Assembly: GCA_016217545.1 (NCBI GenBank)
Contig: JACRHT010000012.1
Location: 620,001-684,000 of the forward strand
Direction: 5' to 3'
Source of the DNA: Opitutia bacterium
GTDB lineage: Bacteria; Verrucomicrobiota; Verrucomicrobiia; Opitutales; Opitutaceae
Length of the DNA stretch: 64,000 nt
In this document: positions 2,685 to 49,978 of the stretch, piece by piece
How the letters are laid out: each line of letters starts with the position of its first letter
Numbering within the stretch: the first letter of the stretch is position 1
Notes under the pieces: model-generated
The model's input: only the letters and a program-made list of their open reading frames with translations
What the model was told of the DNA's origin: nothing
Databases searched by the model: none
Position numbers and translations under genes: made by a program

Positions 2685-5035
2685 GCGCCGCGTAGTTGTT
2701 TCAGCAATTCGTCGATCGACGCAATCGTCTCCGCGTCTCCCTCGATGACCGCGAGCCGCCGCGCGTCGGCGAGATGCTCGAGGCCTTCGAGAGGCCGCTT
2801 GAGATCGAACAACCGCCGCGCCAGCCGCAGCTCCAAGCCCGAATTCACCGGCCCGCTGCGCTCCGCCGCGCGCAGAAAACGCACCTGCGCCTCGGCATCG
2901 CCGCGCGCTTCGGCGAAAAGTGCCGCGCGCAGGTTGTTCGCCTGGTTGCGCGATTGGTGGTCGACGGTCGCGAGGGTGGCTTGCTCAGCCGCTTCGCGCT
3001 TTCCGGTCTCGAGCAGCAACGCGACGAGCTCCTCCTGCGCCGCCTGCTGCCCGGGATCGCGCTCGAGAATCGCCCGCAGCTCCCGCTCGGCGCCGGCGTT
3101 GTCGCGACCGCGCAATTCGCGCGCGCGGAAGAGCCGCGCGTTCGCGTCGTTCGGGACTAGCGCGAGCAGCGCGTCGAGATGCCGCCGGTAATCCTCCGGG
3201 CGCTTCGTCCGGGCAAAGAGATCGCCGAACGCCGGCGCCAGCGCCACCTGCTCGCGCGGCGTGCAACGCGCGGCTGTCGCGCGGAGCAGCTTTTCCGCCT
3301 CATCGTAACGACCAAGCCGCGCCAGCTTGATGGCCTCGTCGGCTGCGAGCGCGTAGCTGTAGGGCTGGAGCTTCTGCACGCGCTGCGACGCCGCCAGCGC
3401 GCCCGGCAAGTCGCCGAGATCGTCCGCGATTTCCTGTTCGAGCTTCGCGAGATCAGCACTCTCCGGATCCGACGCGACCGCTGCGACAATCACACGCTTC
3501 GCCGTCTGCAGCGCCGCCGGGCTTCGGCTCGCGACCTGCGCCATCGCCAGCTCGCGGCCGAGGCGCGCCATGTCTTCGGGGTAAGTGACCTGATTGGGAA
3601 ACGGCGGGCTCTGCACGATCGGCGCGAGGCGCTGCAGGACATTGAAGCGTTCGCGCGCCGTGTAGCCGAGCGCCGCGGCGGCGGCGTTCGCGTCGAGAAA
3701 CACTTTATTCTCCGGCGTCGGCAACAGCGCGACCGCGCCTTCGGCCATCGCGCGCGCGACGCGGGAATTGCCCTCCCAATCGAAATGCACGTGCTCGAAC
3801 AACAGTTCGCGCCCGGCGATCGGCGCCGTGGACTCCGGGTCGGCGCCGAGCAGCCGCGCCGTATCCACGAGCCGCACCTTGCCACCTTCCGCGGCGACGG
3901 CGCGCACGATGTCGTTGACGCGCGGATCGGGCCGGAAACGCAGCGCGTCCCAGTGCAGCGCCTCGACGAAGAACTTCCGCGCTTCGCTTTCGCGTCCGGC
4001 TTGGAGCTCGAGCGAACCGAGCAGGAAGAGCGTCTCGGCGTGGTGCGCATCGATCTGCCGCGCTGCCTCGAGATGCGCGCGCCCCGACGCCGTGTCGCCG
4101 AGCTTCCACGCCACGCGTCCGGCATCGAACTCGCGTTGCCAGCGCGCCAGCTCGTCGCCGGCGAGGTCCGCGCGATGCAGCGAGAGCAGCGGCGGACAAT
4201 CCTTCAGGTTCGCCACGACGGTCGTGAGCAGCACCGGCGCTCCGGCGTCGTTGGCCACGCGCACAATGTCGCGGAGGTTCTGCTCGAAGTTGCGATAGAC
4301 CGTCTCGAGCCGCGGATCGTCGCCTGCCACGGCTTGGTTCACGAACATGCTCATGCCGCCCCATTCGACGGCCTTGGAGCGCGTCGCGACTTTCGCGAAC
4401 AGCGCGCCGAGCAGTTGTCCGGTGCGCGTCGACTTCACCGCCACGCTCGCGCGGATGACCCACAGCGGCGGCGAACTCGACAGATACGCGCAGCCCGGGC
4501 CGTAGGGCCCGACGACCTCGTTGTTGCCGAGATAGACGACGAAGAGGTCAGGCGAAAACGCCGCGAAGCCGCGCGCGATCTGGTAAACCGCGTGCGAGTT
4601 GATCGCCACGACGCCGGCGTTGAGAACCTCGATGCGCCGGCCGGGATACAGCGCGCGGAGCTGCGCGCGCAGCTGCGGCGCGAAACCGAACATCGGCGCC
4701 GGCACGCCCTGCGCCGCCGATTCGCCGAGCACCACAACGCGCAGCGTGTTCGCGGGTTTTTCCCGCGCGACGCGGAAGTTCAGCGGCCGCAGGTCGAAAC
4801 TCTCCGGCATGAACAACCGCACGTAGTCCGGATTCGTGCGAAACATGCCTGGCTCGCGGTCCGGGATCAGAAATCCGGTCGGACGCCCGTAGCCCGCGAC
4901 GCGCAGCCCGATCTCCAATCCCACCACCAGCAACGCGGGCACCGCCACGAGTGCCAGCGCGCGGAACACCCACAGCCGCACGCCAGTGGTCGCGGACACG
5001 GACCGCAGCGGGGCATCGGGGCGGGGCGCACTCAT
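2681..5035 (-). CDS. Membrane-anchored SGNH/GDSL hydrolase with TPR repeats
   Basis: About 784 residues from the ATG at 5035; a TTG at 5080 would add 15 residues of non-membrane sequence. A single N-terminal membrane anchor (about residues 21-41) is followed by an SGNH hydrolase core: VVLGESAAQGV with candidate nucleophile Ser106, a conserved Asn block YLGNNEVVGPYGPG (168-181), and a late FEHVHFDWEGN that could supply the catalytic His. The rest is helical with TPR-like units (for example near the SYALAADEAIKLARLGRYDE segment). It overlaps the carbamoyltransferase by 4 bp. GDSL/SGNH proteins recur beside NodU-type carbamoyltransferases (sxtL in saxitoxin clusters). It probably acts outside the cytoplasmic membrane; the substrate is unknown. 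Confidence 0.85.
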   Translation of the reverse strand: MSAPRPDAPLRSVSATTGVRLWVFRALALVAVPALLVVGLEIGLRVAGYGRPTGFLIPDREPGMFRTNPDYVRLFMPESFDLRPLNFRVAREKPANTLRVVVLGESAAQGVPAPMFGFAPQLRAQLRALYPGRRIEVLNAGVVAINSHAVYQIARGFAAFSPDLFVVYLGNNEVVGPYGPGCAYLSSSPPLWVIRASVAVKSTRTGQLLGALFAKVATRSKAVEWGGMSMFVNQAVAGDDPRLETVYRNFEQNLRDIVRVANDAGAPVLLTTVVANLKDCPPLLSLHRADLAGDELARWQREFDAGRVAWKLGDTASGRAHLEAARQIDAHHAETLFLLGSLELQAGRESEARKFFVEALHWDALRFRPDPRVNDIVRAVAAEGGKVRLVDTARLLGADPESTAPIAGRELLFEHVHFDWEGNSRVARAMAEGAVALLPTPENKVFLDANAAAAALGYTARERFNVLQRLAPIVQSPPFPNQVTYPEDMARLGRELAMAQVASRSPAALQTAKRVIVAAVASDPESADLAKLEQEIADDLGDLPGALAASQRVQKLQPYSYALAADEAIKLARLGRYDEAEKLLRATAARCTPREQVALAPAFGDLFARTKRPEDYRRHLDALLALVPNDANARLFRARELRGRDNAGAERELRAILERDPGQQAAQEELVALLLETGKREAAEQATLATVDHQSRNQANNLRAALFAEARGDAEAQVRFLRAAERSGPVNSGLELRLARRLFDLKRPLEGLEHLADARRLAVIEGDAETIASIDELLKQLRGA

Positions 5036-8765: not shown

Positions 8766-8830
8766 AAACCGTCGCCCGCCAGCTCCTCCATTCGATCACC
8801 GCCCGGCCGGCCATCGTCGCCGCCGCGGCG

Positions 8831-26020: not shown

Positions 26021-26041
26021 AAGGTCGCAAAATGCGACCTT
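26021..26041 (+). terminator. Hairpin after ric, abutting the CRISPR array
   Basis: Perfect 8-bp stem AAGGTCGC, loop AAAAT, GCGACCTT, 31 bp after the ric stop. It merges into the degenerate first repeat of the array. No T-tract follows, so terminator function is uncertain; it could alternatively be a leader or trailer structure. Confidence 0.4.
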
Positions 26042-26737
26042 GATTCCAAATCCTCGGCGGGGAGCATCCGACGAAAAGCACTACCGGCCGATCGTGGTGC
26101 TTTGCCTTGATTCCAAATCCTCGGCGGGGAGCATCGGTCCGGTCCGGGTTGATGTCGCGCGGGGTGCTTTGCCTTGATTCCAAATCCTCGGCGGGGAGCA
26201 TCTATGGCGGCGTTTGGCGTTCTCGGATTCGCGCTTTGCCTTGATTCCAAATCCTCGGCGGGGAGCATCGGCGCGGGCGCACGGGATGCGTCGTCGTTCG
26301 CTTTGCCTTGATTCCAAATCCTCGGCGGGGAGCATCGTCTCGCTCGCCGTCCCCTAAGTCATTCTCGCTTTGCCTTGATTCCAAATCCTCGGCGGGGAGC
26401 ATCAAGACCGTTTTACCATAGCCTGCCGGGCTAGCTTTGCCTTGATTCCAAATCCTCGGCGGGGAGCATCTCGCTACCTCGAATGACCCGCACCTTGATG
26501 CTTTGCCTTGATTCCAAATCCTCGGCGGGGAGCATCGCGCAGTAGATGAAACCGCGCGGGTTGAGTGCTTTGCCTTGATTCCAAATCCTCGGCGGGGAGC
26601 ATCGCGTGCTCATTCGAGGAGAAGAACCCGTTCGCTTTGCCTTGATTCCAAATCCTCGGCGGGGAGCATCGGTGAGCCGCGCGCGGAGGCCTTCGATGTC
26701 GCTTTGCCTTGATTCCAAATCCTCGGCGGGGAGCATC
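26032..26737 (+). CRISPR. Type II-C CRISPR array, 11 repeats and 10 spacers
   Basis: Ten identical 37-bp repeats begin at 26099, 26166, 26233, 26300, 26367, 26434, 26500, 26567, 26634 and 26701. Each starts GCTTTGCCTTGATTCC and ends CGGCGGGGAGCATC on the plus strand. A first repeat at 26032-26068 is intact from CTTGATTCC onward but has ATGCGAC instead of GCTTTGC. Spacers are 30 nt, one is 29 nt (26471-26499), and all differ. Plus-strand transcription is favoured because the anti-repeat candidates upstream of cas9 are best placed for that polarity and a T-tailed terminator follows the right end. The degenerate repeat at the left would then be the promoter-proximal one. Confidence 0.98.
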
Positions 26738-26746
26738 CGCCGAAGC

Positions 26747-26779
26747 GAAGGCCCTCCTTGCGAGGGCCTTCTGCTTTTC
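26747..26779 (+). terminator. Rho-independent terminator at right end of the array
   Basis: Perfect 10-bp stem GAAGGCCCTC, loop CTTGC, GAGGGCCTTC (26747-26771), followed on the plus strand by TGCTTTTC. No T-tract exists on the other strand, so the hairpin is best read as ending plus-strand (array) transcription before it meets cas2. It also falls right after the cas2 stop. Confidence 0.65.
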
Positions 26780-27114
26780 TACCAGAGCTGTATCTGCTCC
26801 GGCATGTCCTCGGGTGGCACCTCTTTGGCGGGGCTGCCGTAGATCACGAAGGCTCGTTCCCACTGCGCGCGGGTGACGTAGAAGGCTCGCACCTTCCCCT
26901 CCGGCGGGATGCCCTGCTTCACCCGGTCGAGGTGCGTTTGTTGCCGCGCGAAGCTCACGCACGGGCGCACATAGAGGCTGAACTGGATCATCTGAAATCC
27001 GTCATCGAGGAGGAATTTCCGGAAACCGGTCGCCTCCTTGCGCTGCTTCGGCGTGAGCACCGGCAGATCGAAGGCTACGACGAGCCAGCCCATTTTGAAT
27101 TTTTCCACATCCAT
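26779..27114 (-). CDS. cas2: CRISPR-associated endonuclease Cas2
   Basis: 111 residues from the ATG at 27114. The ferredoxin-like Cas2 start MGWLVVAFDLPVLTPKQRK includes Asp16 at the metal site position, followed by FRKFLLDDGFQMIQFSLYVR. The C-terminal part (VRAFYVTRAQWERAFVIYG) matches the Cas2 of type II systems. With Cas1 it forms the spacer-integration complex. It overlaps the cas1 3' end by 40 bp, and its stop lies 42 bp from the array. Confidence 0.93.
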   Translation of the reverse strand: MDVEKFKMGWLVVAFDLPVLTPKQRKEATGFRKFLLDDGFQMIQFSLYVRPCVSFARQQTHLDRVKQGIPPEGKVRAFYVTRAQWERAFVIYGSPAKEVPPEDMPEQIQLW

Positions 27115-28001
27115 GGCCGGTAGTGTCGGGAAGAGCTGTTGAGCACGGCTTGACGGAAGGAACGCACGTCGCCCTCGATCACGCCGCGGATGTCGAGGTC
27201 GAGGCCGAGATAGTCCACGCGCTGAATGGCGAAGCCCGTCACCCAACGGCGAAATTCCCCGTTCACGACGAAGGCCTCTTCGTGCGACCGGTCTTTCACC
27301 CACTGATAGACGCGCCAATCCACGCAGGGGCGAAACGGTTCCATCAGGTCGTAGGCGAGCGGCGCGCTGCGTTCACGGATGGCGTGCGAGATGCCGACGG
27401 TGGGATCGAGTCCGAAGCCGTAGAGCTTTTGCAGCACGGTCGAGAGCAGCACGGCGTAGCCGTAGTTGAGGAGGTCGTTCAGGCCGCCGAGCTTTCGACC
27501 GCGTGCGAAGCCTTCGATGCGCAATCCTTCGGTGAAGGCATCCCAAAACAACTTTGCGCAGCCTCCCTCCTTGCGCGCGGTGCGCGCTTGGGCGGCGCGG
27601 GCGAGCTCGCGGGTGGCCTCGCTCTTCGGGGCGACGAGCGCGGCGACGGCGGCTTGGTTAAGGCATTTGGCGTCGATGGTCTTCTCCCAGAGCCGGCGGC
27701 GCACTTTCTCGTCCAGTGTGAGGTGGCGGCGCGTGAGTAGCGTGTCGGCCGAGCGGCACGCGGGCAGGAGCAGGCTGACGGGCTGGAAGCGCTCGCAGAT
27801 GATGAGCGACACGCCGTGCTTGGCGGCTTCGAGGAACAGGTGGCTGTGGATGCGCGCGGAGAAACTCGTGACGACGATAGCCGCCACGTCTTCCAGCGGG
27901 AGCTGGCGCTTGACGCCCTTGTCGTCGGTGGAGACCAGCTGCCCGTCCCGACACGTCAGATCGGCTTGGGGTGAGTCGATGCTGACGATGTGGTAGGACA
28001 T
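27075..28001 (-). CDS. cas1: CRISPR-associated endonuclease Cas1 (type II)
   Basis: 308 residues from the ATG at 28001. N-terminal beta domain MSYHIVSIDSPQADLTCRDG; C-terminal helical domain with the catalytic metal triad: Glu145 in ARKEGGCAKLFW, His206 in GISHAIRERSAPLAYD and Glu/Asp in DLMEPFRP (Asp218, Glu221). It integrates new spacers with Cas2. It starts 17 bp after cas9 and overlaps cas2, so cas9-cas1-cas2 form one operon. No cas4 or csn2 is present, as expected for subtype II-C. Confidence 0.95.
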   Translation of the reverse strand: MSYHIVSIDSPQADLTCRDGQLVSTDDKGVKRQLPLEDVAAIVVTSFSARIHSHLFLEAAKHGVSLIICERFQPVSLLLPACRSADTLLTRRHLTLDEKVRRRLWEKTIDAKCLNQAAVAALVAPKSEATRELARAAQARTARKEGGCAKLFWDAFTEGLRIEGFARGRKLGGLNDLLNYGYAVLLSTVLQKLYGFGLDPTVGISHAIRERSAPLAYDLMEPFRPCVDWRVYQWVKDRSHEEAFVVNGEFRRWVTGFAIQRVDYLGLDLDIRGVIEGDVRSFRQAVLNSSSRHYRPWMWKNSKWAGSS

Positions 28002-28018
28002 GGCCGGTGTCGTGGCGC

Positions 28019-31000
28019 CTAACGCGGTGAGCCGCAGAAATTGGTTCCGGCTGGCGCGGCTTGATCGCGGACCAGGCTTTTCAACAGCACGTTGATCCAG
28101 TTCGGCTTGGTGGCGTCGAGCGGAGCCAAATCTAGTGCGAGTCCGCTGGTGTTGTTCTTGATGGAGCCGACGCGCCAGCGTCCCGGGCGCTTGCCTCCAC
28201 GAAGCTCGATGATCTGGCCGTTCCGCAGCAACCATGGGGCCTTGCCGCCGTTGCGCGCCTTAAGTTCCGCCAAGCTGCGCCACACTTGGCGGTGCGGCAC
28301 GATGATGAAGCGCTCTTCCGGTAGCAGCGTCGCGTCGTCAAGGATGGCGACGCCGAAATTGTCGGTCACGACGCGCACGCCCTTGAGCGCGGCAAGCTTG
28401 CCGCCGACCAGACCGAAGGCTTTCGCGGTCGGCTCGTTCGTGATCTTGGCGGTCGGCCGATTGCCGTCGGCATCGCGGGGAGCGCGCTGGCGCAGCTTCA
28501 CGCGGCCGTCGGCGGATTCGAGCACGCGGCGCGTGTTTTCCTCCAGTCGCAGCCCGCTCATGTCGGCGGGGACGTGCTGCACGACGCGGCGCTCGGCGAG
28601 GCGAGTGCGGATTTGCTTGTCCAGCGCCGGGTGGTTTTCGAGCAGGCCGCGCAAGCGCCACTTGCCCTCGGCGTCGATGTCCACGGGCACTTGCGAACGG
28701 AGCCAGTCGCGGTCGGCGGCGGCGATTTTGCGTTGCTGCAAGAGTGCGACGAGACGGGTCAGCAGGGCGCCGTTGTGGGGCAGGAGCGCGCTGGCGTAGC
28801 CGAGCGTGATGGCGTCCACGGCGTGGTGGAGATGGGTGATGCTGCGAATCTCGGACTTCTCGCGGAGCATCTTGCCGTCGGAGTCGAGCACCGTGGGGCA
28901 GACGGTCGCGAGGCAATCCATGAGGCGCCACTCCTTGCGCACGGCGCCGGTGACGCTGCCGGGCAACGCGACGAGATCGTGATCGGCGAGATGAGGCAGC
29001 GCGCGGCGCACGGCGATGCGCGCGAGTCGCGTGAGTTGCGAGGTCTGCGTGAGCTGACCGGGCGTGAAGTCGCGCTCTTTTTCGGTGTAGGATTCGAGGA
29101 GGAAGAATTCCTTGCGGCGGCGTTTGCGGCGCGCGTCGTCGTCGTGGCCGCGCGAGTCGAGTCGCGCGACGAACTCCTTGAACCGCTGCGGCGTCATGAT
29201 CGAGAGGTGCGCCGCGCCGGGCACGGGTTGACCGCCGCACTCCTGAATAAATTGCCACGCGGTGCGTTTGTCCTTCCAGCGGTTCACGGCGGGGAAGGTG
29301 ACAGCGAGCGAGTCGAGCGAATCGCTCGGGCGCATCGAACGCGGGATGATGTGGTCGAGGTCCACCACGCCGTCGCGCAGGTGGACGGCTTCGAACAACT
29401 CGCCGGTGTAGGGGCAGCGGCAGTCGAGATCGAGGGCGATGCGCGCTTTGCGGATGAGCGAGCCGTTGGGCTGGAGACCGGCGTCTTCGAGCCAGGTGAC
29501 GGCGTCGTGGTGGGACTTCAAGCGCAGGCCGAGGTCCTTGGCGATGTCCTGCGCCGTGAGCCCGGAGTGGTCGCGCAGTTCGCGATTCACTTCGATGGTC
29601 ACGCGGGTGAAGCGTGCGGCGTCACCGGCACCGTAGGCGGGATCGGCGACGAGGTCGCGGAGCAGGCGGCCGAGGATGAGGAGGCGGTGGCGGAGAAGAT
29701 GATTGTTGGTCTGCTGGTCGAAGGGGCGGCCTTCGCGATAGGCTTTCACCCGGTCGGTTTCCTCGAGGCAACCACCGCTGGCCTTCGGATCGCCTCCGGC
29801 GATGACCTCGTTGAAGGCCTTAGCGAGCAGCGGCCGCGCATAGGGCGCGCGGCCGCTGAGTGCGGCGAGGGCTTTGCCGAGATGCAGCGGCTGGGTGAGC
29901 GGATCGACGATGGCAGCGGGCTTTTTAGAGCGGGACTTCGCCTTGGCTGGCGCAGCGGTGGAGGCGGAGGCGAGCGTAGCGTCGAAGGCGGCGATGTCGC
30001 CGCTGTAGCTCGGGAGTTCCTCGCGTAGCGCGGCGAGCGTGGTGGAGTGCGCTTTGCCGTTGGCAGGATTGATGCGCCACCAGCGGTTGCGGGTGCGGGC
30101 GCGGAGTTTTTCCGGGAGCACGGGCCAGACAGCGCGGAGGTGCGGGTTTTCCTGGATCAGGGCTTGGACGGGATCGAGCACGAGGGCGCGCTCGGCGTCG
30201 GGGTGGAGGAAGAGATTGTCGAAGTTGTCGCGCTGGCGTCCGGGGAGCGCGCGCACGGCGTCGCGGAGTTCGGTCTTGGTGAGGCGTCCGTCGGCCGACA
30301 TGCGGGCGTGGAGCGTGGCGCGCTCGGCGACATTGAGCGGACGCAGCTGCGGATCGTCTCCCGTGGCGAGGCGGAGGTTGGCGAGCAGCATGGCCCAGCG
30401 GTAGCGGAGGAACTCAGGCGACTTCTTTGACGGGACCTTGGCGTCGCGCTCGGCGAGACGACGGGCTTCGGTCTCGGGGACACATTGCGCGCGCAGCTCG
30501 GCGTGGCGTGCGGCGGCGGTGTGCACGCAGCAGGCGATGATGCGGTTGTCGTAGCGCATCTGGAGTCGCCCGAAGAGCAGGCCGCCGCGAAAACGGCGTG
30601 GCAGCACGAGACCCGGAATCTTGGTGGCGCGGGCTTCATCCATCAGGGTGCGGATGAAGGTGTCGTCGAGGCCGGCGAGTTTGCCGACATGATGGGAGAG
30701 CAAGGTGCGGACTTCGGCGCGCACGATGTCGCGCGGGAAGGCGGCTTTTTGTTGGCGGAGATTCTTGGTCGGCTCGTGTGAGAGCGTGGCCGGGCCGTGC
30801 GGATCGACACCGAGCCAGCGGCAGACGGTTTCGGCCATGCTAGAGGTGCCATGTTTGGTCATCTCGTCTTTGGCGCGTTCGACTTTTTCGGTGTCATCGG
30901 CGGCGTCGGGATCGGAGGCGTCCGTTTCGCCCCAGGGTTCGTAGCCGCGATTATGCGCATACCAGCGGAGCACGGCCCACAATTCGGGCCAGATGAGGAG

Positions 31001-31336
31001 TGATTTGCCTTCGCTGGCGAGGACGCGCGCGGCCAGCTGCCAGGGCGCGGGGTGGCCGGTGCCGGGGGCATGGCGTGCGGCGAGGTCTGCCGTGGCGAGC
31101 GCGCCGAGGTGGGCGAGCAACTGCTCCATCCGACGGATGCGTGTCTTGGTGGCCCGGACGTGACGGCGCTGCTGGCGATGCAGACGGCGCTGCGAGGCGA
31201 GGGCGCTGTCTTTCTCGAACAGCACAACGCCGCAACCGACCAGATCGGGCGGAACGGCTGGGCCGTCGTTGGGTTGCAAGACGGCCCAGCCGATGGAGCT
31301 GTGGCCGATGTCTAACGCTAAACTTAACGTTTTCAT
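28019..31336 (-). CDS. cas9: CRISPR-associated endonuclease Cas9, type II-C
   Basis: 1105 residues, in the II-C size range. RuvC-I has Asp9 in SLALDIGHSSIGWAVLQ, then an Arg-rich bridge helix (RRLHRQQRRHVRATKTRIRR, about 53-72). RuvC-II Glu582 lies in VTIEVNRELRDHS. The HNH domain has CRCPYTGELF, catalytic His662 in DLDHIIPRS and Asn685 in NRWKDKRTAW. RuvC-III has His838 and Asp841 in HLHHAVDAITLGYA. All nuclease residues are present, so it should cut both strands. The C-terminal PAM-interacting region contains EERFIIVPHRQVWRSL and GRWRVGSIKNN. No Shine-Dalgarno sequence precedes the ATG; that stretch is instead occupied by a repeat-like motif. Confidence 0.98.
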   Translation of the reverse strand: MKTLSLALDIGHSSIGWAVLQPNDGPAVPPDLVGCGVVLFEKDSALASQRRLHRQQRRHVRATKTRIRRMEQLLAHLGALATADLAARHAPGTGHPAPWQLAARVLASEGKSLLIWPELWAVLRWYAHNRGYEPWGETDASDPDAADDTEKVERAKDEMTKHGTSSMAETVCRWLGVDPHGPATLSHEPTKNLRQQKAAFPRDIVRAEVRTLLSHHVGKLAGLDDTFIRTLMDEARATKIPGLVLPRRFRGGLLFGRLQMRYDNRIIACCVHTAAARHAELRAQCVPETEARRLAERDAKVPSKKSPEFLRYRWAMLLANLRLATGDDPQLRPLNVAERATLHARMSADGRLTKTELRDAVRALPGRQRDNFDNLFLHPDAERALVLDPVQALIQENPHLRAVWPVLPEKLRARTRNRWWRINPANGKAHSTTLAALREELPSYSGDIAAFDATLASASTAAPAKAKSRSKKPAAIVDPLTQPLHLGKALAALSGRAPYARPLLAKAFNEVIAGGDPKASGGCLEETDRVKAYREGRPFDQQTNNHLLRHRLLILGRLLRDLVADPAYGAGDAARFTRVTIEVNRELRDHSGLTAQDIAKDLGLRLKSHHDAVTWLEDAGLQPNGSLIRKARIALDLDCRCPYTGELFEAVHLRDGVVDLDHIIPRSMRPSDSLDSLAVTFPAVNRWKDKRTAWQFIQECGGQPVPGAAHLSIMTPQRFKEFVARLDSRGHDDDARRKRRRKEFFLLESYTEKERDFTPGQLTQTSQLTRLARIAVRRALPHLADHDLVALPGSVTGAVRKEWRLMDCLATVCPTVLDSDGKMLREKSEIRSITHLHHAVDAITLGYASALLPHNGALLTRLVALLQQRKIAAADRDWLRSQVPVDIDAEGKWRLRGLLENHPALDKQIRTRLAERRVVQHVPADMSGLRLEENTRRVLESADGRVKLRQRAPRDADGNRPTAKITNEPTAKAFGLVGGKLAALKGVRVVTDNFGVAILDDATLLPEERFIIVPHRQVWRSLAELKARNGGKAPWLLRNGQIIELRGGKRPGRWRVGSIKNNTSGLALDLAPLDATKPNWINVLLKSLVRDQAAPAGTNFCGSPR

Positions 31337-31344
31337 CGAGTTAA

Positions 31345-31360
31345 GGAATCAAAACAAAGC
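31345..31360 (+). other. Anti-repeat A / repeat mimic in the cas9 leader
   Basis: GGAATCAAAACAAAGC on the plus strand is complementary to the first 16 bases of the CRISPR repeat except for two C-A mismatches. Weaker similarity continues to TCGAG at 31336-31340, touching the cas9 start codon. On the minus strand the same bases form GCTTTGTTTTGATTCC, a near copy of the repeat, 8 bases before the cas9 ATG. It could be a second tracrRNA anti-repeat (plus strand) or a repeat mimic in cas9 mRNA (minus strand). Confidence 0.7.
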
Positions 31361-31385
31361 CCCAGAGCGTCTGTGAACTTGAGAA

Positions 31386-31445
31386 GGCTGTAGGTGAGAC
31401 TAGCGCTAGAGTTTGGACCTCTTTGATCAGCCCGCACCTACAGCC
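31386..31445. other. Long inverted repeat in cas9 upstream region
   Basis: GGCTGTAGGTG (31386-31396) and CACCTACAGCC (31435-31445) are perfect 11-bp complements separated by 38 bases that contain the palindrome CTAGCGCTAG (31400-31409). Either strand would form a stable stem: on the minus strand it lies in the predicted cas9 5' leader, on the plus strand it would follow anti-repeat A as a tracrRNA-like hairpin. Confidence 0.65.
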
Positions 31446-31466
31446 ATGTTTCAAGAAACGTGAAAA

Positions 31467-31495
31467 CTTACATTCCCTAGAGCAACTTAAGTCAA
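31467..31495 (-). promoter_or_regulatory. Putative cas operon promoter
   Basis: On the minus strand TTGACT (31490-31495) is followed after 17 bases by TGTAAG (31467-31472), a good -35 with a moderate -10. Transcription from here would give cas9 mRNA a leader of about 125 bases containing the 31386-31445 inverted repeat and the repeat mimic at 31345-31360. Confidence 0.45.
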
Positions 31496-31520
31496 TACCA
31501 ATCTGCATCGGAAACGAACG

Positions 31521-31574
31521 CAAGACGGCCGCCCAGCCGATGGAGCCGTGGCCGATGTCGAGTGAGAGGCTCAT
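31521..31574 (-). pseudogene. Duplicated 5' end of cas9 (RuvC-I fragment)
   Basis: Eighteen codons from an ATG at 31574 read MSLSLDIGHGSIGWAAVL, closely matching Cas9 residues MKTLSLALDIGHSSIGWAVL. Base identity is high from GACATCGGCCAC through GTCTTGC. After that the frame runs on to 31341 without any Cas9 similarity. The fragment is accompanied by its own copy of the anti-repeat-like motif (31619-31633), as the full cas9 is. It is best explained as a partial duplication or a recombination scar of an older cas9. Confidence 0.8.
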
Positions 31575-31604
31575 AGTTTGGGGTTGCGAAGGGAGGTGGC
31601 CGCG

Positions 31605-31730
31605 AGCTGACTGCCGTCGGAATCAAGACAAAGTAGTGAGCGCAGGCCGTTTCCCTGCCTTCGTTGGCACATCGGCAATACCAGCGCTTCAAGCTCAGGC
31701 GGCAGCAACACTGCCGCCTGTTGCGTTTCC
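31605..31730 (+). ncRNA. Candidate tracrRNA
   Basis: Anti-repeat core GGAATCAAGACAAAG at 31619-31633 pairs with the repeat start GCTTTGCCTTGATTCC with one mismatch and one G-U. It is followed by AGTGAGCGCAGG, a small hairpin GCAGG-CCGTTTC-CCTGC (31642-31658), a GTTGGCAC/CGGCAATACC region and a strong terminal hairpin AGGCGGCAG-CAACA-CTGCCGCCT (31697-31719) with TTGCGTTTCC after it. Anti-repeat, nexus-like hairpin and terminal stem in this order and about 110-125 nt total length fit type II-C tracrRNAs. Ends are estimated; no clear promoter is seen (a weak CATAGT -10 lies near 31573). Confidence 0.7.
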
Positions 31731-31894
31731 GGGGTCAGGCTTTCGAGGAAAGCGAAGGGCATTGTGACAAGCAGAGCGTTCCGCCTCGCTCTCGTGGGGG
31801 CGGCGGGATTCACGTGGCCCGTAGCCGCGGCAGGCTGAGGGTGGGCCGCCGAAGGGTCAAATCGGGAGTAGCCGGACGGCCACTGTGGCTCGTG

Positions 31895-31923
31895 TTGACT
31901 TTCAACAGGACGACCTGTTGATT
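31895..31923 (+). promoter_or_regulatory. padR promoter with embedded palindromic operator
   Basis: TTGACT (31895-31900) and TTGATT (31918-31923) are spaced 17 bp and form a plausible sigma-70 promoter. The spacer holds a perfect inverted repeat TCAACAGG-ACGA-CCTGTTGA (31902-31921) that overlaps the -10. This suits autorepression by the PadR protein encoded 7 bp downstream. Confidence 0.6.
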
Positions 31924-31929
31924 TCCAAC

Positions 31930-32271
31930 ATGAGCGAGCCCGACCGCACCGAACTCCTGCAAGGCACCCTCGACCTCCTGGTCCTCAAGACGCTCGCCAC
32001 GCTGGGCGAGCTGCACGGCTTCGGCATCGCGCGTCGCATCGAGCAGGTCTCCGGCGGCTCCGTGCTGCTCAATCAGGGCACAATCTATCCGGCGCTCGTG
32101 CGCCTCGAGGAGCAGGGCTGGATCGCCTCCGAGTGGGGCACGAGCGACAACAACCGCCGCGCGCGGTTCTACGCCATCACCGCGGCCGGCCGGAAACAGC
32201 TCAAGGAAGAGGTCGCCAACTGGCAGCGCGTCACCGCGCTCGTCGACGCCGTGCTCGCGGCGGAATCGTGA
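31930..32271 (+). CDS. PadR-family transcriptional regulator
   Basis: 113 residues from the ATG at 31930; a GTG at 31885 lies upstream of the predicted promoter, so it is excluded. Winged-helix start ELLQGTLDLLVLKTLATLGE and LHGFGIARRIEQVSGG, then NQGTIYPALVRLEEQGWIASEWG and RRARFYAITAAGRKQL are diagnostic of PadR. It precedes an ADOP-type permease on the same strand (58 bp, with a REP palindrome between), a frequent pairing in Acidobacteria and Verrucomicrobiota, and probably represses both. Confidence 0.93.
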   Translation: MSEPDRTELLQGTLDLLVLKTLATLGELHGFGIARRIEQVSGGSVLLNQGTIYPALVRLEEQGWIASEWGTSDNNRRARFYAITAAGRKQLKEEVANWQRVTALVDAVLAAES

Positions 32272-32297
32272 CCCCCGCACCGGATAAATCCACCTGA

Positions 32298-32319
32298 GCA
32301 GGCGGGACGCCTGCGCTAC
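32298..32319 (-). repeat. GTAG-type REP palindrome
   Basis: GCAGGC-GGGAC-GCCTGC stem followed by GCTAC (GTAG on the minus strand), placed between padR and the permease gene, where it may attenuate or stabilise the shared transcript. Confidence 0.55.
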
Positions 32320-32329
32320 TTTCCACGCC

Positions 32330-35029
32330 ATGAAACTCTGGACGAAACTCCGCCACCTCCTCGGTCGCCGCGCCCGCGTGGCGCGCCTCGAAGAGGAAAT
32401 GCGCACCCACATCGAGCAACTCACCGAGGAAAACGTCCGCCGCGGACTTGATCGCGTCGAGGCACGCCGCCAGGCGCACCTCGCGTTCGGCAACGTGCTC
32501 GCGACGCGCGAGGAGACCGAAGACGCGCTCGGCTGGCCCTCGCTCGAGGCCTGGGTGCACGATCTGCGCGTGGCGTGGCGCGGCCTGAGCCGGCGCCCGG
32601 CTTTCGCGCTCAGCCTGATTGCGGTGCTCATGTTGGGCACCGGGGCCACGACGGCGGTGTTCTCGCTCGTGCGCGGCGTGTTGCTCGAGCCGTTGCCAGT
32701 GCCGCATCCCGAGGAACTGCATCTCGTGTGCGCGCCGAATGGCGATCCCTTCGAACTCAGCGCGCCGACCGTCGATCGCCTCGGCCGCGAGGGCGTGCTC
32801 GCCGGTCGCGTGGCGGGCTACTCGTCGAATTCCCGCGCTGCGCTCCGCCTCGAAGGCGCGCCCGCGCAGCCGACGACGGTGCAATTCGTCTCCGGAAATT
32901 TCTTCGCCGCTCTCGGCGTTTCGACCGTGCGCGGTCGCGCGCTCAATCCCGCGGACGATGCGCCCGGCGCGCCGCAGGCGGTCGCGGTGGTCTCGCACGC
33001 GTTCTGGCAGAACAAGCTCGCCGGCGCCGCCGATGTGGTCGGCCGCGTGATCGATCTCAACGGCCAGAGCATCACCATCGTCGGTGTCGCGCCGAAATCG
33101 TTCACCGGCGTGTCGCTTGGCGACACGGGCGAATTGTGGCTGCCGCTCGGCTTGCACGCGCCGCTGCGCTGCAGTCCGTCGGCGTGGACGATTTCCGACG
33201 GACCGTTTCCGCTCGAAGCGTGGCGCCAATCCGACAATGCCGCGTGGCTCTCCGCGTTGGTGCGCCTGCCGGCCGGCGGCAGCGGCGCGCAGGGTCAGCT
33301 CGAGGCGGGGTGGCGGCCGCAACTCGACGCGGCGCTGCGCATCGTCACCGATCCGAAGACCGTGCAGGATTTCCGCAGTCGCGTGCCGAGCCTCGTGCCG
33401 AGCCCGCGGGGTTATTCGTCGACGCGCGACGAGTTTCGCCGCGTCGGCCTGACACTCACGTTGCTCGTCGCGGCGGTCGTGCTCGTGACGGCGGCGAATT
33501 CCGCGACGCTGCTGCTGCTGCGGGTGCTGTCGCGCGGACGCGAGCTGGGCGTGCGGCTCGCGCTCGGGGCGGGCCAATGGCGGCTCGCGCGCTCCGCGCT
33601 GATGGAGGGTCTGTTGCTCGCGCTGGCCGGCGCGACGGGCGGAGTGCTGTTGAGTTTGTGGCTGACGCCGCTGCTGACGACGTGGCTGGTGCCGTCGGCT
33701 TCCGGCAATCTGCCCGGAGTGGACTGGCAGCTCATCGGCGTGCTCGCCGCGCTCACGGTCGGGCTCGGACTCGCGATCGGTGCGGCGCCGGCGTGGCTCA
33801 GCGCGCGGCTGTCGCCGCAGAGCATCCTGCAGCAACGCGCGCTCGGCGCCGGCGGTTCGCTGCGGCTCGGTCGCGGCCTCATCGTGGCGCAGCTCGCGCT
33901 TTCGGTGATGTTGATTTCGATCGCGGGCGCGCTGGCGCTCGACCTGCGCCGGGTGTTGGCGGCGCATCCGGGTTACGAGCGGTCGACGGTCGTGCAGGCG
34001 TTCTTCAGCCTCCAGGCGGCGCGGATCCCGGCGGAAAAGCAGGACGCGGTCCTCGAGCACATTCGCCTGGCGGCGCGCGAGCTGCCGCAGGTGCGCTCCG
34101 TGGGCTTCGCCGCGAGCGGTGTGCTCAGCGGCAGCCGCTCGCGCAGCGGCACTTATTTCCGTGGCGAGGGCATCAACGCGCCGCGCGACAACATCCAGCA
34201 CGAGTGCATCGATGCCGGCTACTTTGAGGCGATGGGCATGTCGCTCCGGCGCGGTCGCGCGATCGCGGCGACGGACGACGCGGCGCATCCGCCGGTGGCC
34301 GTCATCAGCGAGCGGCTGGCGCGCGAGGTGTTTGGCGGCGCGGATCCGATCGGCCGCCGGTTCGGCTTCGACACGAACGCCGGTCCGGAGGACCGCGAGA
34401 TCGTCGGGATCGTGGCCGATGCGCGCGTGAATGGCGTGCGCGAGCTCCCGCCGGCGTTGATCTATACGCCGCTGGCGCAGTGGCAGTCACGACCGTCGTG
34501 CCTCGTGGTGCGGGTGGCGGGCGACGGCGTGGCCGCGCGCGTGGAATTGCAGAAGAAAATTTCGGCGGCGGAGCCGGGGATTTTGTTCACGCGTTGGGCG
34601 ACACTCGAGGAGCGGACCCAGCGTTGGATCGGCAACGATCTCGCCACGGTGCGGCTGACGGCGGGTTTCGGCCTGCTGGCGACGCTGCTGGCGGTGATTG
34701 GCGTGCTCGGCGCGCTCGGTTACCTGGTGGCGAGCCGCTCGCGGGAAATCGCCGTGCGACTCGCGATCGGAGCGGAGCCGGGCCGGGTTTGGCGCGGCGT
34801 GCTCCTGGATGCGGCGACGCTCGGTGTGCTCGGCGCGACGATCGGCGTGGGACTCGCGTTTCTCCTCCCGCGGTTGCTCGGCTCGTGGATGATGGCCGGC
34901 TTGCGCGCGGATGGGACGGCGATCGCGCTGGCCGCGGCGGCAGGATTACTCGCGGCGGTGATCGGCGGGCTGTTGCCGGCGCGACGGGCGGCGAAGGTCG
35001 ATCCGCTGGCGCTGCTCCGCGCGGAATGA
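32330..35029 (+). CDS. ADOP-type (MacB/FtsX-like) ABC transporter permease
   Basis: 899 residues. The N-terminal about 80 cytoplasmic residues (RVARLEEEMRTHIEQLTEEN, RRQAHLAFGN) are typical of acidobacterial duplicated orphan permeases. Two MacB/FtsX units follow: helix near 96-118 (FALSLIAVLMLGTGATTAVF), a large periplasmic MacB_PCD domain, three helices (about 375-495), then a second PCD domain and three more helices ending with a PARRAAKVDPLALLRAE signature. The ATPase subunit is not adjacent, hence 'orphan'. Likely role: tripartite-style export of peptides, lipids or toxins. Controlled by the PadR upstream; converges on the nitrilase gene. Confidence 0.92.
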   Translation: MKLWTKLRHLLGRRARVARLEEEMRTHIEQLTEENVRRGLDRVEARRQAHLAFGNVLATREETEDALGWPSLEAWVHDLRVAWRGLSRRPAFALSLIAVLMLGTGATTAVFSLVRGVLLEPLPVPHPEELHLVCAPNGDPFELSAPTVDRLGREGVLAGRVAGYSSNSRAALRLEGAPAQPTTVQFVSGNFFAALGVSTVRGRALNPADDAPGAPQAVAVVSHAFWQNKLAGAADVVGRVIDLNGQSITIVGVAPKSFTGVSLGDTGELWLPLGLHAPLRCSPSAWTISDGPFPLEAWRQSDNAAWLSALVRLPAGGSGAQGQLEAGWRPQLDAALRIVTDPKTVQDFRSRVPSLVPSPRGYSSTRDEFRRVGLTLTLLVAAVVLVTAANSATLLLLRVLSRGRELGVRLALGAGQWRLARSALMEGLLLALAGATGGVLLSLWLTPLLTTWLVPSASGNLPGVDWQLIGVLAALTVGLGLAIGAAPAWLSARLSPQSILQQRALGAGGSLRLGRGLIVAQLALSVMLISIAGALALDLRRVLAAHPGYERSTVVQAFFSLQAARIPAEKQDAVLEHIRLAARELPQVRSVGFAASGVLSGSRSRSGTYFRGEGINAPRDNIQHECIDAGYFEAMGMSLRRGRAIAATDDAAHPPVAVISERLAREVFGGADPIGRRFGFDTNAGPEDREIVGIVADARVNGVRELPPALIYTPLAQWQSRPSCLVVRVAGDGVAARVELQKKISAAEPGILFTRWATLEERTQRWIGNDLATVRLTAGFGLLATLLAVIGVLGALGYLVASRSREIAVRLAIGAEPGRVWRGVLLDAATLGVLGATIGVGLAFLLPRLLGSWMMAGLRADGTAIALAAAAGLLAAVIGGLLPARRAAKVDPLALLRAE

Positions 35030-49237: not shown

Positions 49238-49867
49238 ATGCTGGTCTTCATCGACGAATCAGGCGATCCCGGCATGCCGCCCGGCGGCAGTCGCTCCGAG
49301 TATTTCACGGTGACGTTGGTCACGATTCAGGACCACGAGGAAGCGACCGCCATCGAGCAGCGGATCGCCCTTCTGCGGCGCGAACTCAACCTGCCGGACA
49401 CCTTTGAATTTCATTTCAGCAAGCTGAAGCAGGCGTGGCGGGAGGAGTTCCTCCGGACGCTGTCGCGCTACGAGTGGTTCTACTTCGCGGTGGTGCTCAA
49501 CAAGGCGAAGCTGACAGGCAAAGGATTTCAGTTTCCCGACCCGTTCTACAAATACACCTGCGGCCTGGTTTTCCAGAATGCGAAGCCCTACCTGGAAGAC
49601 GCCATCGTGGTGATCGACGGGAGCGGCGGCCGGGAATTTCGCACGCAACTCAGCACCTATCTCCGGAAACGCGTCAACGAGGCCGGCGAGGGACCCAAAT
49701 CGATCCGCAAGGTGAAGCTGCAAGACTCGCGGCAGAACTCGTTGCTTCAGCTGGCCGACATGGTTTGTGGGGCGGTCGCACGCAGCTACACGGTGCCCGG
49801 CGAACAAAGTGCCTTGAGAAAGTTGATCTCCCACCGGGAGATGCAGGTGCAATTCTGGCCAAAATGA
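49238..49867 (+). CDS. DUF3800-domain protein
   Basis: 209 residues. MLVFIDESGDPGMPPGG at the start gives the DUF3800 acidic signature (Asp6-Glu7-Ser-Gly-Asp10), followed by FEFHFSKLKQAWREEFLRTL, AIVVIDGSGGREFRTQLSTY and a late SLLQLADMVCGAVARSY with the conserved Asp. The family is predicted to have an RNase H-like fold and is common in mobile and defence contexts. It sits as a cassette between the truncated and intact res starts. Its nuclease activity is predicted, not demonstrated. Confidence 0.88.
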   Translation: MLVFIDESGDPGMPPGGSRSEYFTVTLVTIQDHEEATAIEQRIALLRRELNLPDTFEFHFSKLKQAWREEFLRTLSRYEWFYFAVVLNKAKLTGKGFQFPDPFYKYTCGLVFQNAKPYLEDAIVVIDGSGGREFRTQLSTYLRKRVNEAGEGPKSIRKVKLQDSRQNSLLQLADMVCGAVARSYTVPGEQSALRKLISHREMQVQFWPK

Positions 49868-49978
49868 AAATCCCCCCGACCTATCCTTGCGGAAAGAGCA
49901 CCATACGGAGCCGGTTCGGTCTGGGGGGCAATTCCGCTGTCACTATCGGCACGACCACCTCGAAAATCAAGTCGGCAT

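Follow-up and report, generated by a model that had tools for sequence, protein, structure and literature searches.

A solitary CRISPR repeat in the cas9 leader of an Opitutia type II-C locus and a possible crRNA-like feedback on Cas9

The type II-C locus and the repeat in its cas9 leader

Here, we analyse a stretch of 64,000 nucleotides from an Opitutia bacterium of the Verrucomicrobiota (hereafter the window, which is part of contig C12 in the 5.1-Mb genome G000) that carries a type II-C locus of clustered regularly interspaced short palindromic repeats (CRISPR) and, in the leader directly ahead of cas9, a solitary degenerate copy of the CRISPR repeat. The assignment to type II-C is based on model matches for cas9, cas1 and cas2, which lie in contiguous frames, and from a divergent trans-activating CRISPR RNA (tracrRNA) recognised by model; no further cas gene was noticed between the array and the tracrRNA, where no model search was aimed at csn2 or cas4. 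The window's Cas9 is 51–57% identical to its nearest relatives. An earlier note, made from the letters of this DNA, had drawn attention to the leader motif, and the features discussed below are collected in Table 1.

Table 1. Features of the type II-C locus and of the region between cas9 and the tracrRNA (positions in the window)
Feature	Position	Strand	Remark
Solitary degenerate CRISPR repeat in the cas9 leader, CRISPR RNA (crRNA) orientation: GCTTTGTTTTGATTCC	31345..31360	-	Leader motif of the earlier note
cas9, 1105 residues	28019..31336	-	TIGR01865, E 2.4e-52
cas2 and cas1, open reading frames 26779-27318 and 27075-28235	26779..28235	-	TIGR01573 and TIGR03639
CRISPR array, 10 intact 37-nt repeats and one degenerate first repeat	26032..26737	+ (crRNA orientation)	
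tracrRNA	31619..31720	+	Anti-repeat at 31619-31634; body reaches 31700; terminator at 31696-31720
Stub of a second cas9 start (MSLSLDIGHGSIGWAAVLR...)	31520..31574	-	ATG at 31574, 44 nt from the tracrRNA anti-repeat
Leader hairpin, 11-bp perfect outer stem, 38 nt between arms	31386..31445	-	Ends 25 nt before the repeat
Pseudo-spacer, 24 nt 5' of the repeat, would-be guide of a Cas9-bound crRNA-like RNA	31361..31384	-	Position only
Possible cas9 promoter, TTGACT-17-TGTAAG	31467..31495	-	By eye, weak

The tracrRNA that the earlier note had put forward as a plus-strand candidate is borne out by a covariance model built from 27 other tracrRNAs with the window excluded, which places it at 31619–31700 with 54.7 bits; anti-repeat (GGAATCAAGACAAAGT), conserved body and terminator all occur there on the plus strand. 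The hexamer TTGCGA lies 35 nt upstream, at the place that the family's −35 box occupies (spacing by eye).

The leader motif reads GCUUUGUUUUGAUUCC on the cas9-sense strand (31360–31345) and GGAATCAAAACAAAGC on the plus strand, and 8 bases (31337–31344) separate it from the cas9 ATG at 31336–31334. Within the window, a search for the motif at up to 3 mismatches returns 12 matches where 1.4 would be expected, and these are the 10 intact array repeats, the tracrRNA and the leader itself. All 16 positions of the motif pair with the tracrRNA anti-repeat (14 Watson–Crick and 2 G–U, read from the letters), and RNAduplex returns the same 16 consecutive pairs at −22.7 kcal/mol, against a mean of −8.9 kcal/mol for 200 mononucleotide shuffles, none of which does as well; the pairing is no chance effect. 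The start of the crRNA repeat pairs with the anti-repeat at 15 of 16 positions, with one mismatch. The distance to the start codon, the complete pairing, the single mismatch of the array repeat and the slight advantage of the leader over it had all been claimed by the earlier note, and each of these claims holds.

The motif is identical to the start of the array repeat at 14 of 16 positions. When the tracrRNA covariance model is run over it, 31345 scores 11.5 bits through the anti-repeat part alone, slightly below the 12.7 to 15.5 bits of the window's array repeats, and the motif therefore looks like a CRISPR repeat rather than a second tracrRNA. In the repeat:anti-repeat duplex of the family, a mismatch at position 10 is kept in most loci (A or T in the anti-repeat, C in the repeat); the leader copy of the window abolishes it.

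Upstream of the repeat, the region has an unusual make-up. Codons of cas9 at 31276–31312 recur at 31520–31559 (40 nt, 90% identity, one 3-nt gap), and the spacing between this stub and the tracrRNA is that of the relatives' cas9–tracrRNA junctions. The stub and the tracrRNA thus form an ancestral-looking junction, which would be a sign of duplication or recombination at the boundary of cas9 and the tracrRNA; the stub may persist since the tracrRNA promoter sits in it. The roughly 207 bases between the true cas9 and the stub (31313–31519) are AT-rich, with 44% GC against 67% in cas9; besides the new cas9 start and the repeat, they contain a strong hairpin and perhaps a promoter. Folded in the cas9 sense, this hairpin reaches −31.4 kcal/mol, as low as none of 200 mononucleotide shuffles (z −2.15 for the plus strand). 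Between the two boxes of the possible promoter lies GCTCTAGGG (31475–31483), which resembles the pseudo-spacer end GCTCTGGGG.

We also considered whether the 183-bp leader (31337–31519) is a repeated or mobile element and rejected this candidate, as its only match in its own genome is itself and 188 other genomes give none below E 0.012. Likewise, no homology of 31313–31519 with the tracrRNA side is left beyond the motif itself, since the sequences past the motif and past the anti-repeat align no better than shuffles (458 of 500 as good locally, 334 of 500 globally).

Lone repeats before cas9 in related loci

The lone repeat recurs in five loci of different lineages, and three of the five add a terminator-like hairpin and a seed match upstream. 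Relatives of the window's Cas9 were collected in four overlapping genome sets, drawn from relatives, class, phylum and order (189, 384, 387 and 372 genomes), and in a further contig search with a Cas9 alignment, which kept 80 of 129 loci, 40 of them duplicates of earlier ones; a contig search with a single Cas9 protein found no relative. Gaps and elements were scored in the 88 loci with a tracrRNA recognised by pattern, while 16 loci had no pattern match or no start. Fourteen of these 16, together with locus L103, were examined by alignment and by eye, and from them emerged L158, after the long-gap rule given below had been noticed in the other four loci. The remaining loci missed by the pattern have short gaps by eye or, in the case of L031, carry the tracrRNA on the strand of cas9; left out of the scoring were L089 and L123, for which no cas9 start was available, and the distant Cas9 loci L038–L041.

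The gap between cas9 and the tracrRNA has a median of 46 nt across the 88 loci and exceeds 200 nt in six scored loci. A lone repeat occupies five of these six (the window, L032, L056, L097 and L158), and the sixth (L103, 633 nt) has a 120-residue open reading frame (3886–4248) between the tracrRNA and cas9. The alignment score of 9 in L103 was not counted as an element, nor was the score of 9 in L063 (gap 122 nt, p 0.0085), and loci with gaps of 166 and 180 nt have no repeat element. An exact test of five in six long-gap loci against none in 90 others gives 1e-7, which serves as a guide only, because 90 is rounded and the loci are related.

By score, a second repeat-like segment on the cas9 strand reaching at least 11 is found in 4 of the 88 loci, namely the window (12), L032 (13), L056 (11) and L097 (14), all with gaps of 241–348 nt. 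L158, from a Rubritalea metagenome-assembled genome (MAG), has a gap of 424 nt by the tracrRNA model and a perfect 16-nt repeat start. Identity of the element to the repeat is 14 of 16 in L032 and 15 of 16 in L097 (read from the sequence), and the element of L056 aligns with a gap; in a gapped search, 1 of 2000 shuffles did as well for L056 and none of 2000 for the window, L032 and L097. The repeat lies 42 nt (L032), 44 nt (L056), 73 nt (L097) and 61 nt (L158) from the ATG, against 8 nt in the window.

The window, L032, L056 and L097 belong to four different families (f1, f3, f55 and f20), L097 being Cerasicoccus maritimus NBRC 105382, a culturable relative that L143 also represents. Short-gap sisters without the element stand beside two bearers (L030 and L093 beside L097, L156 beside L158), and the spread over families together with these sisters suggests that the lone repeat may have been gained repeatedly. 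Family searches for close relatives returned only G776 for L056 (4 genomes) and none for L032 (2 genomes); in G776 (L089) the Cas9 match starts at residue 106–116, which leaves no leader to compare. The earlier note had named loss of the motif in close relatives that keep the tracrRNA as evidence that would count against its proposal; across the family, absence of the element beside a retained tracrRNA is indeed the rule, although for close relatives the comparison is limited, as bearers and relatives share at most 57% Cas9 identity with the window.

The anatomy of three relatives goes further than that of the window. In L032, L056 and L097 a terminator-like hairpin stands between the repeat and the cas9 ATG, with stems of 10, 11 and 12 that are reached in 1 of 100 shuffles each. 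The end of the pseudo-spacer next to the repeat recurs upstream in these loci as exact runs anchored at the repeat of 10–11 nt in L032, 8 nt in L056 and 9 nt in L097, and of 500 dinucleotide shuffles, 0, 11 and 4, respectively, did as well. With a different set of shuffles, 2 of 2000 did as well for L032 and 795 of 2000 for the window. With wobble and two boundaries allowed, 11 of 1000 shuffles matched L032 and 1 of 1000 matched L097, and a control that ranks the true spacer end among all ends of the same leader clearly supports L097 (1 of 319). The 3' flanks of the three candidate target sites read GACGTTTA, CATATAGC and AGTTTTGC.

Several loci showed peculiarities of their own. In L031 the tracrRNA is inverted and runs in the cas9 direction, unlike in the other loci examined (reoriented 8771–8786; locus 4716–4801). 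L090 (G990) has the array repeat GCTTTGTCTTGATTCC and an anti-repeat one base shorter, which looks like a joint change of repeat and anti-repeat. The contigs of L110 and L115, which also carry a cas9 of the family, are labelled as Myxococcales and Desulfocapsa MAGs, through either horizontal transfer or mis-binning. In the window itself, a PadR-family regulator followed by an 899-residue open reading frame lies beside the tracrRNA (31885–35029, plus strand), and a DUF3800-IX RNA (Rfam RF02968, 52.9 bits) lies at 49867–49929 on the minus strand.

Readings of the leader repeat

Our favoured reading, put forward tentatively, is that the leader transcript yields a crRNA-like guide for Cas9 that acts back on cas9. 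The transcript would carry the pseudo-spacer and then the repeat and would pair with the tracrRNA in the manner of a pre-crRNA; the RNA derived from it would be loaded by Cas9 as a crRNA-like guide, and the guided Cas9 would bind DNA near the cas9 promoter by means of a short seed match and lower transcription. RNase III may also process the leader and so contribute to the lowered cas9 expression. Transcription, processing, Cas9 loading and repression, and for the window the target as well, are steps that we infer. The evidence for a crRNA-like element is fair in the three relatives L032, L056 and L097, and the case for the window would rest on its repeat, on the place of that repeat and on the similar loci.

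Several observations weigh against this reading. The window's lone repeat is equidistant from the array repeat and from the complement of the tracrRNA anti-repeat, to which it is also identical at 14 of 16 positions (by eye). No terminator follows the repeat in the gap of the window or in that of L158, and a consensus scan did not detect the cas9 promoter at 31467–31495. The best site of the window's pseudo-spacer, at 31475–31483, is not significant (128 of 1000 shuffles as good with wobble and two boundaries, 246 of 500 for the exact run), for L158 neither the exact run (49 of 500) nor the scored match (125 of 500) reaches significance, and L056 weakens to 94 of 1000 once wobble and two boundaries are allowed. 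The spacer-end control, which hairpin arms inflate, is weak for L032 (30 and 8 of 290), L056 (72 and 104 of 212) and the window (84 and 44 of 253). The pseudo-spacer of L097 shares bases with the T-run of the preceding hairpin, an awkward arrangement for transcription. Finally, a protospacer adjacent motif (PAM) could not be derived, as the spacers of the window's array had no match in a phage collection, and four of its ten spacers, searched by exact 21-nt ends, had none in viral contigs. Because the window has no terminator and its target is not significant, some probability stays with a relic and with direct pairing of the tracrRNA to the leader.

The main rival, which we consider somewhat unlikely, holds that the junction of cas9 and the tracrRNA was duplicated or recombined, that the old junction survives as the stub and tracrRNA at 31520–31720, and that the anti-repeat beside cas9 is a functionless leftover. 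The repeated cas9 codons described above fit this view, with each repeat copy placed upstream of a cas9 start, as do the AT-rich composition of the inserted bases and the 8-nt distance to cas9, which falls within the 7–124 nt that separate the anti-repeat from cas9 in 52 of 57 loci of the family. However, no tracrRNA body accompanies 31345, where the flanks show no more likeness than shuffles, and a remnant kept at 14 of 16 positions next to a fully diverged body would be odd for neutral decay, unless a recombination breakpoint fell at the motif. Moreover, the four other long-gap loci have a lone repeat without a cas9 stub: none was detected in six other longer-gap loci (L032, L056, L097, L158, L034 and L151; p 0.13 or more).

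The earlier note had proposed a mechanism at the level of RNA, in which pairing of the tracrRNA with the leader would block the cas9 start or make the level of Cas9 depend on free tracrRNA. Such translational control is possible but not favoured, and we rate it as unlikely. It would draw on the complete pairing so close to the AUG, which exceeds that of the crRNA repeat by one pair; in the relatives, however, the repeats lie 42–73 nt from the ATG, too far to cover the start codon, and in three of them a terminator-like hairpin intervenes. The absence of a visible ribosome-binding site, which the earlier note had remarked on, is ordinary, since only 16 of 97 family cas9 starts have a Shine–Dalgarno-like 4-nt match at −20 to −4. 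Complementarity between leader and tracrRNA may itself not single out the window: among 42 relatives, 20 have the anti-repeat on the opposite strand at 7–28 nt from the start codon of cas9, so cas9 leaders longer than the gap would be complementary to the tracrRNA by overlap, which may be common in the family. In short-gap loci the −35-like box of the tracrRNA, about 35 nt before the anti-repeat, likewise overlaps the cas9 start region (by eye). What survives of the proposal is the idea of feedback on Cas9 that involves pairing with the tracrRNA, which is our best guess, while the covering of the start codon looks less likely.

A leader-derived guide might instead send Cas9 to other genes and not to cas9, in the manner of the small CRISPR-associated RNA (scaRNA) compared below, a prospect that we regard as improbable. 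The leader has the same core parts, an array-orientation repeat segment that pairs with the tracrRNA, and apart from its origin one site in the own genome (G000:C2:397755) is identical to the pseudo-spacer end at 14 of 16 positions. Against it, the pseudo-spacer end has 33 sites with no more than 3 mismatches while its reversed pattern already has 16, a difference much of which base composition may explain, and no PAM is known. A second tracrRNA made from the plus strand at 31345, where an anti-repeat does lie, can be dismissed as very improbable: an unfiltered rescan with the model gives the anti-repeat alone, with 2 nt replacing 70 model positions, and, by eye, the corresponding position upstream lacks the TTG of the −35 box that the family shows.

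Known systems and meaning for the family

The crRNA-like feedback on cas9 that we favour would have counterparts in other systems, as far as the consulted passages of the cited papers describe them. In Streptococcus pyogenes type II-A, Cas9 represses its own cas promoter with tracr-L through an 11-nt match (PMC8616872, PMC11417352). Self-repression by Cas9 at a cas promoter through a short match is what we propose here as well; tracr-L, a long form of the tracrRNA, serves as a single guide, whereas in our reading the guide would be one molecule and the tracrRNA another. In types I and V-A, the Cas effector targets the promoter of its own cas operon with CreR, a crRNA-like RNA, as guide (PMC12737573). 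A crRNA-like RNA aimed at its own cas promoter is again the proposed likeness; the difference is that the locus here is of type II, with Cas9, a tracrRNA and one partial repeat, and that the target in the window is a candidate only. A CreR mini-array usually has two repeats, whereas the window's leader holds the start of one.

The scaRNA of Francisella novicida type II-B, with further members predicted in II-A and II-C (Guzina et al. 2018, PMC6199352), resembles the leader element as a lone repeat-like segment in array orientation that lies inside a cas locus and pairs with the tracrRNA; the window's motif lies outside the array and has this orientation and pairing. scaRNAs are bounded by transcription signals, a start and a terminator; in the window no terminator follows the copy, and a promoter was noted by eye but not by the consensus scan, whereas a terminator-like hairpin is present in L032, L056 and L097 but not in L158. 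The scaRNAs covered in that paper also lie mostly beside the array, and only once directly upstream of cas9 (Mycoplasma gallisepticum II-A, PMC6199352); scaRNA has been linked to virulence, while the element here sits in the cas9 leader of Verrucomicrobiota-type loci. The word stem 'autoregul' is absent from the main text of PMC6199352, and a Neisseria scaRNA is described as a post-transcriptional regulator in the relevant passage of PMC13431127. In Campylobacter jejuni type II-C, noncanonical crRNAs arise as guides from various host mRNAs and are presented there as having an unclear physiological role (PMC8224270); here, the element lies in the cas9 leader, is recurrent and has an upstream match in three relatives. 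Among the matches listed in a literature search that left subscription papers largely outside, we recognised no report of a crRNA-like autorepressor before a type II-C cas9.

We venture, with some reserve, that type II-C systems in Verrucomicrobiota and related groups have repeatedly evolved a crRNA-like autorepressor between tracrRNA and cas9, and that the version in the window is fused to the leader, which would make each cas9 mRNA a potential guide precursor. The reading makes a clear prediction that a reporter could test. RNA-guided self-repression of cas genes is known, from the sources cited above, for types I and V-A (CreR) and II-A (tracr-L), and a crRNA-like element before cas9 in several II-C lineages would, if true, extend it to another branch of Cas9. 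For the mining of such loci, it would also mean that a repeat before cas9 need not signal a second tracrRNA. Some bacteria may thus use Cas9 to turn down its own production, and native cas9 levels may, if the reading holds, depend on the supply of crRNA and on anti-CRISPR proteins.

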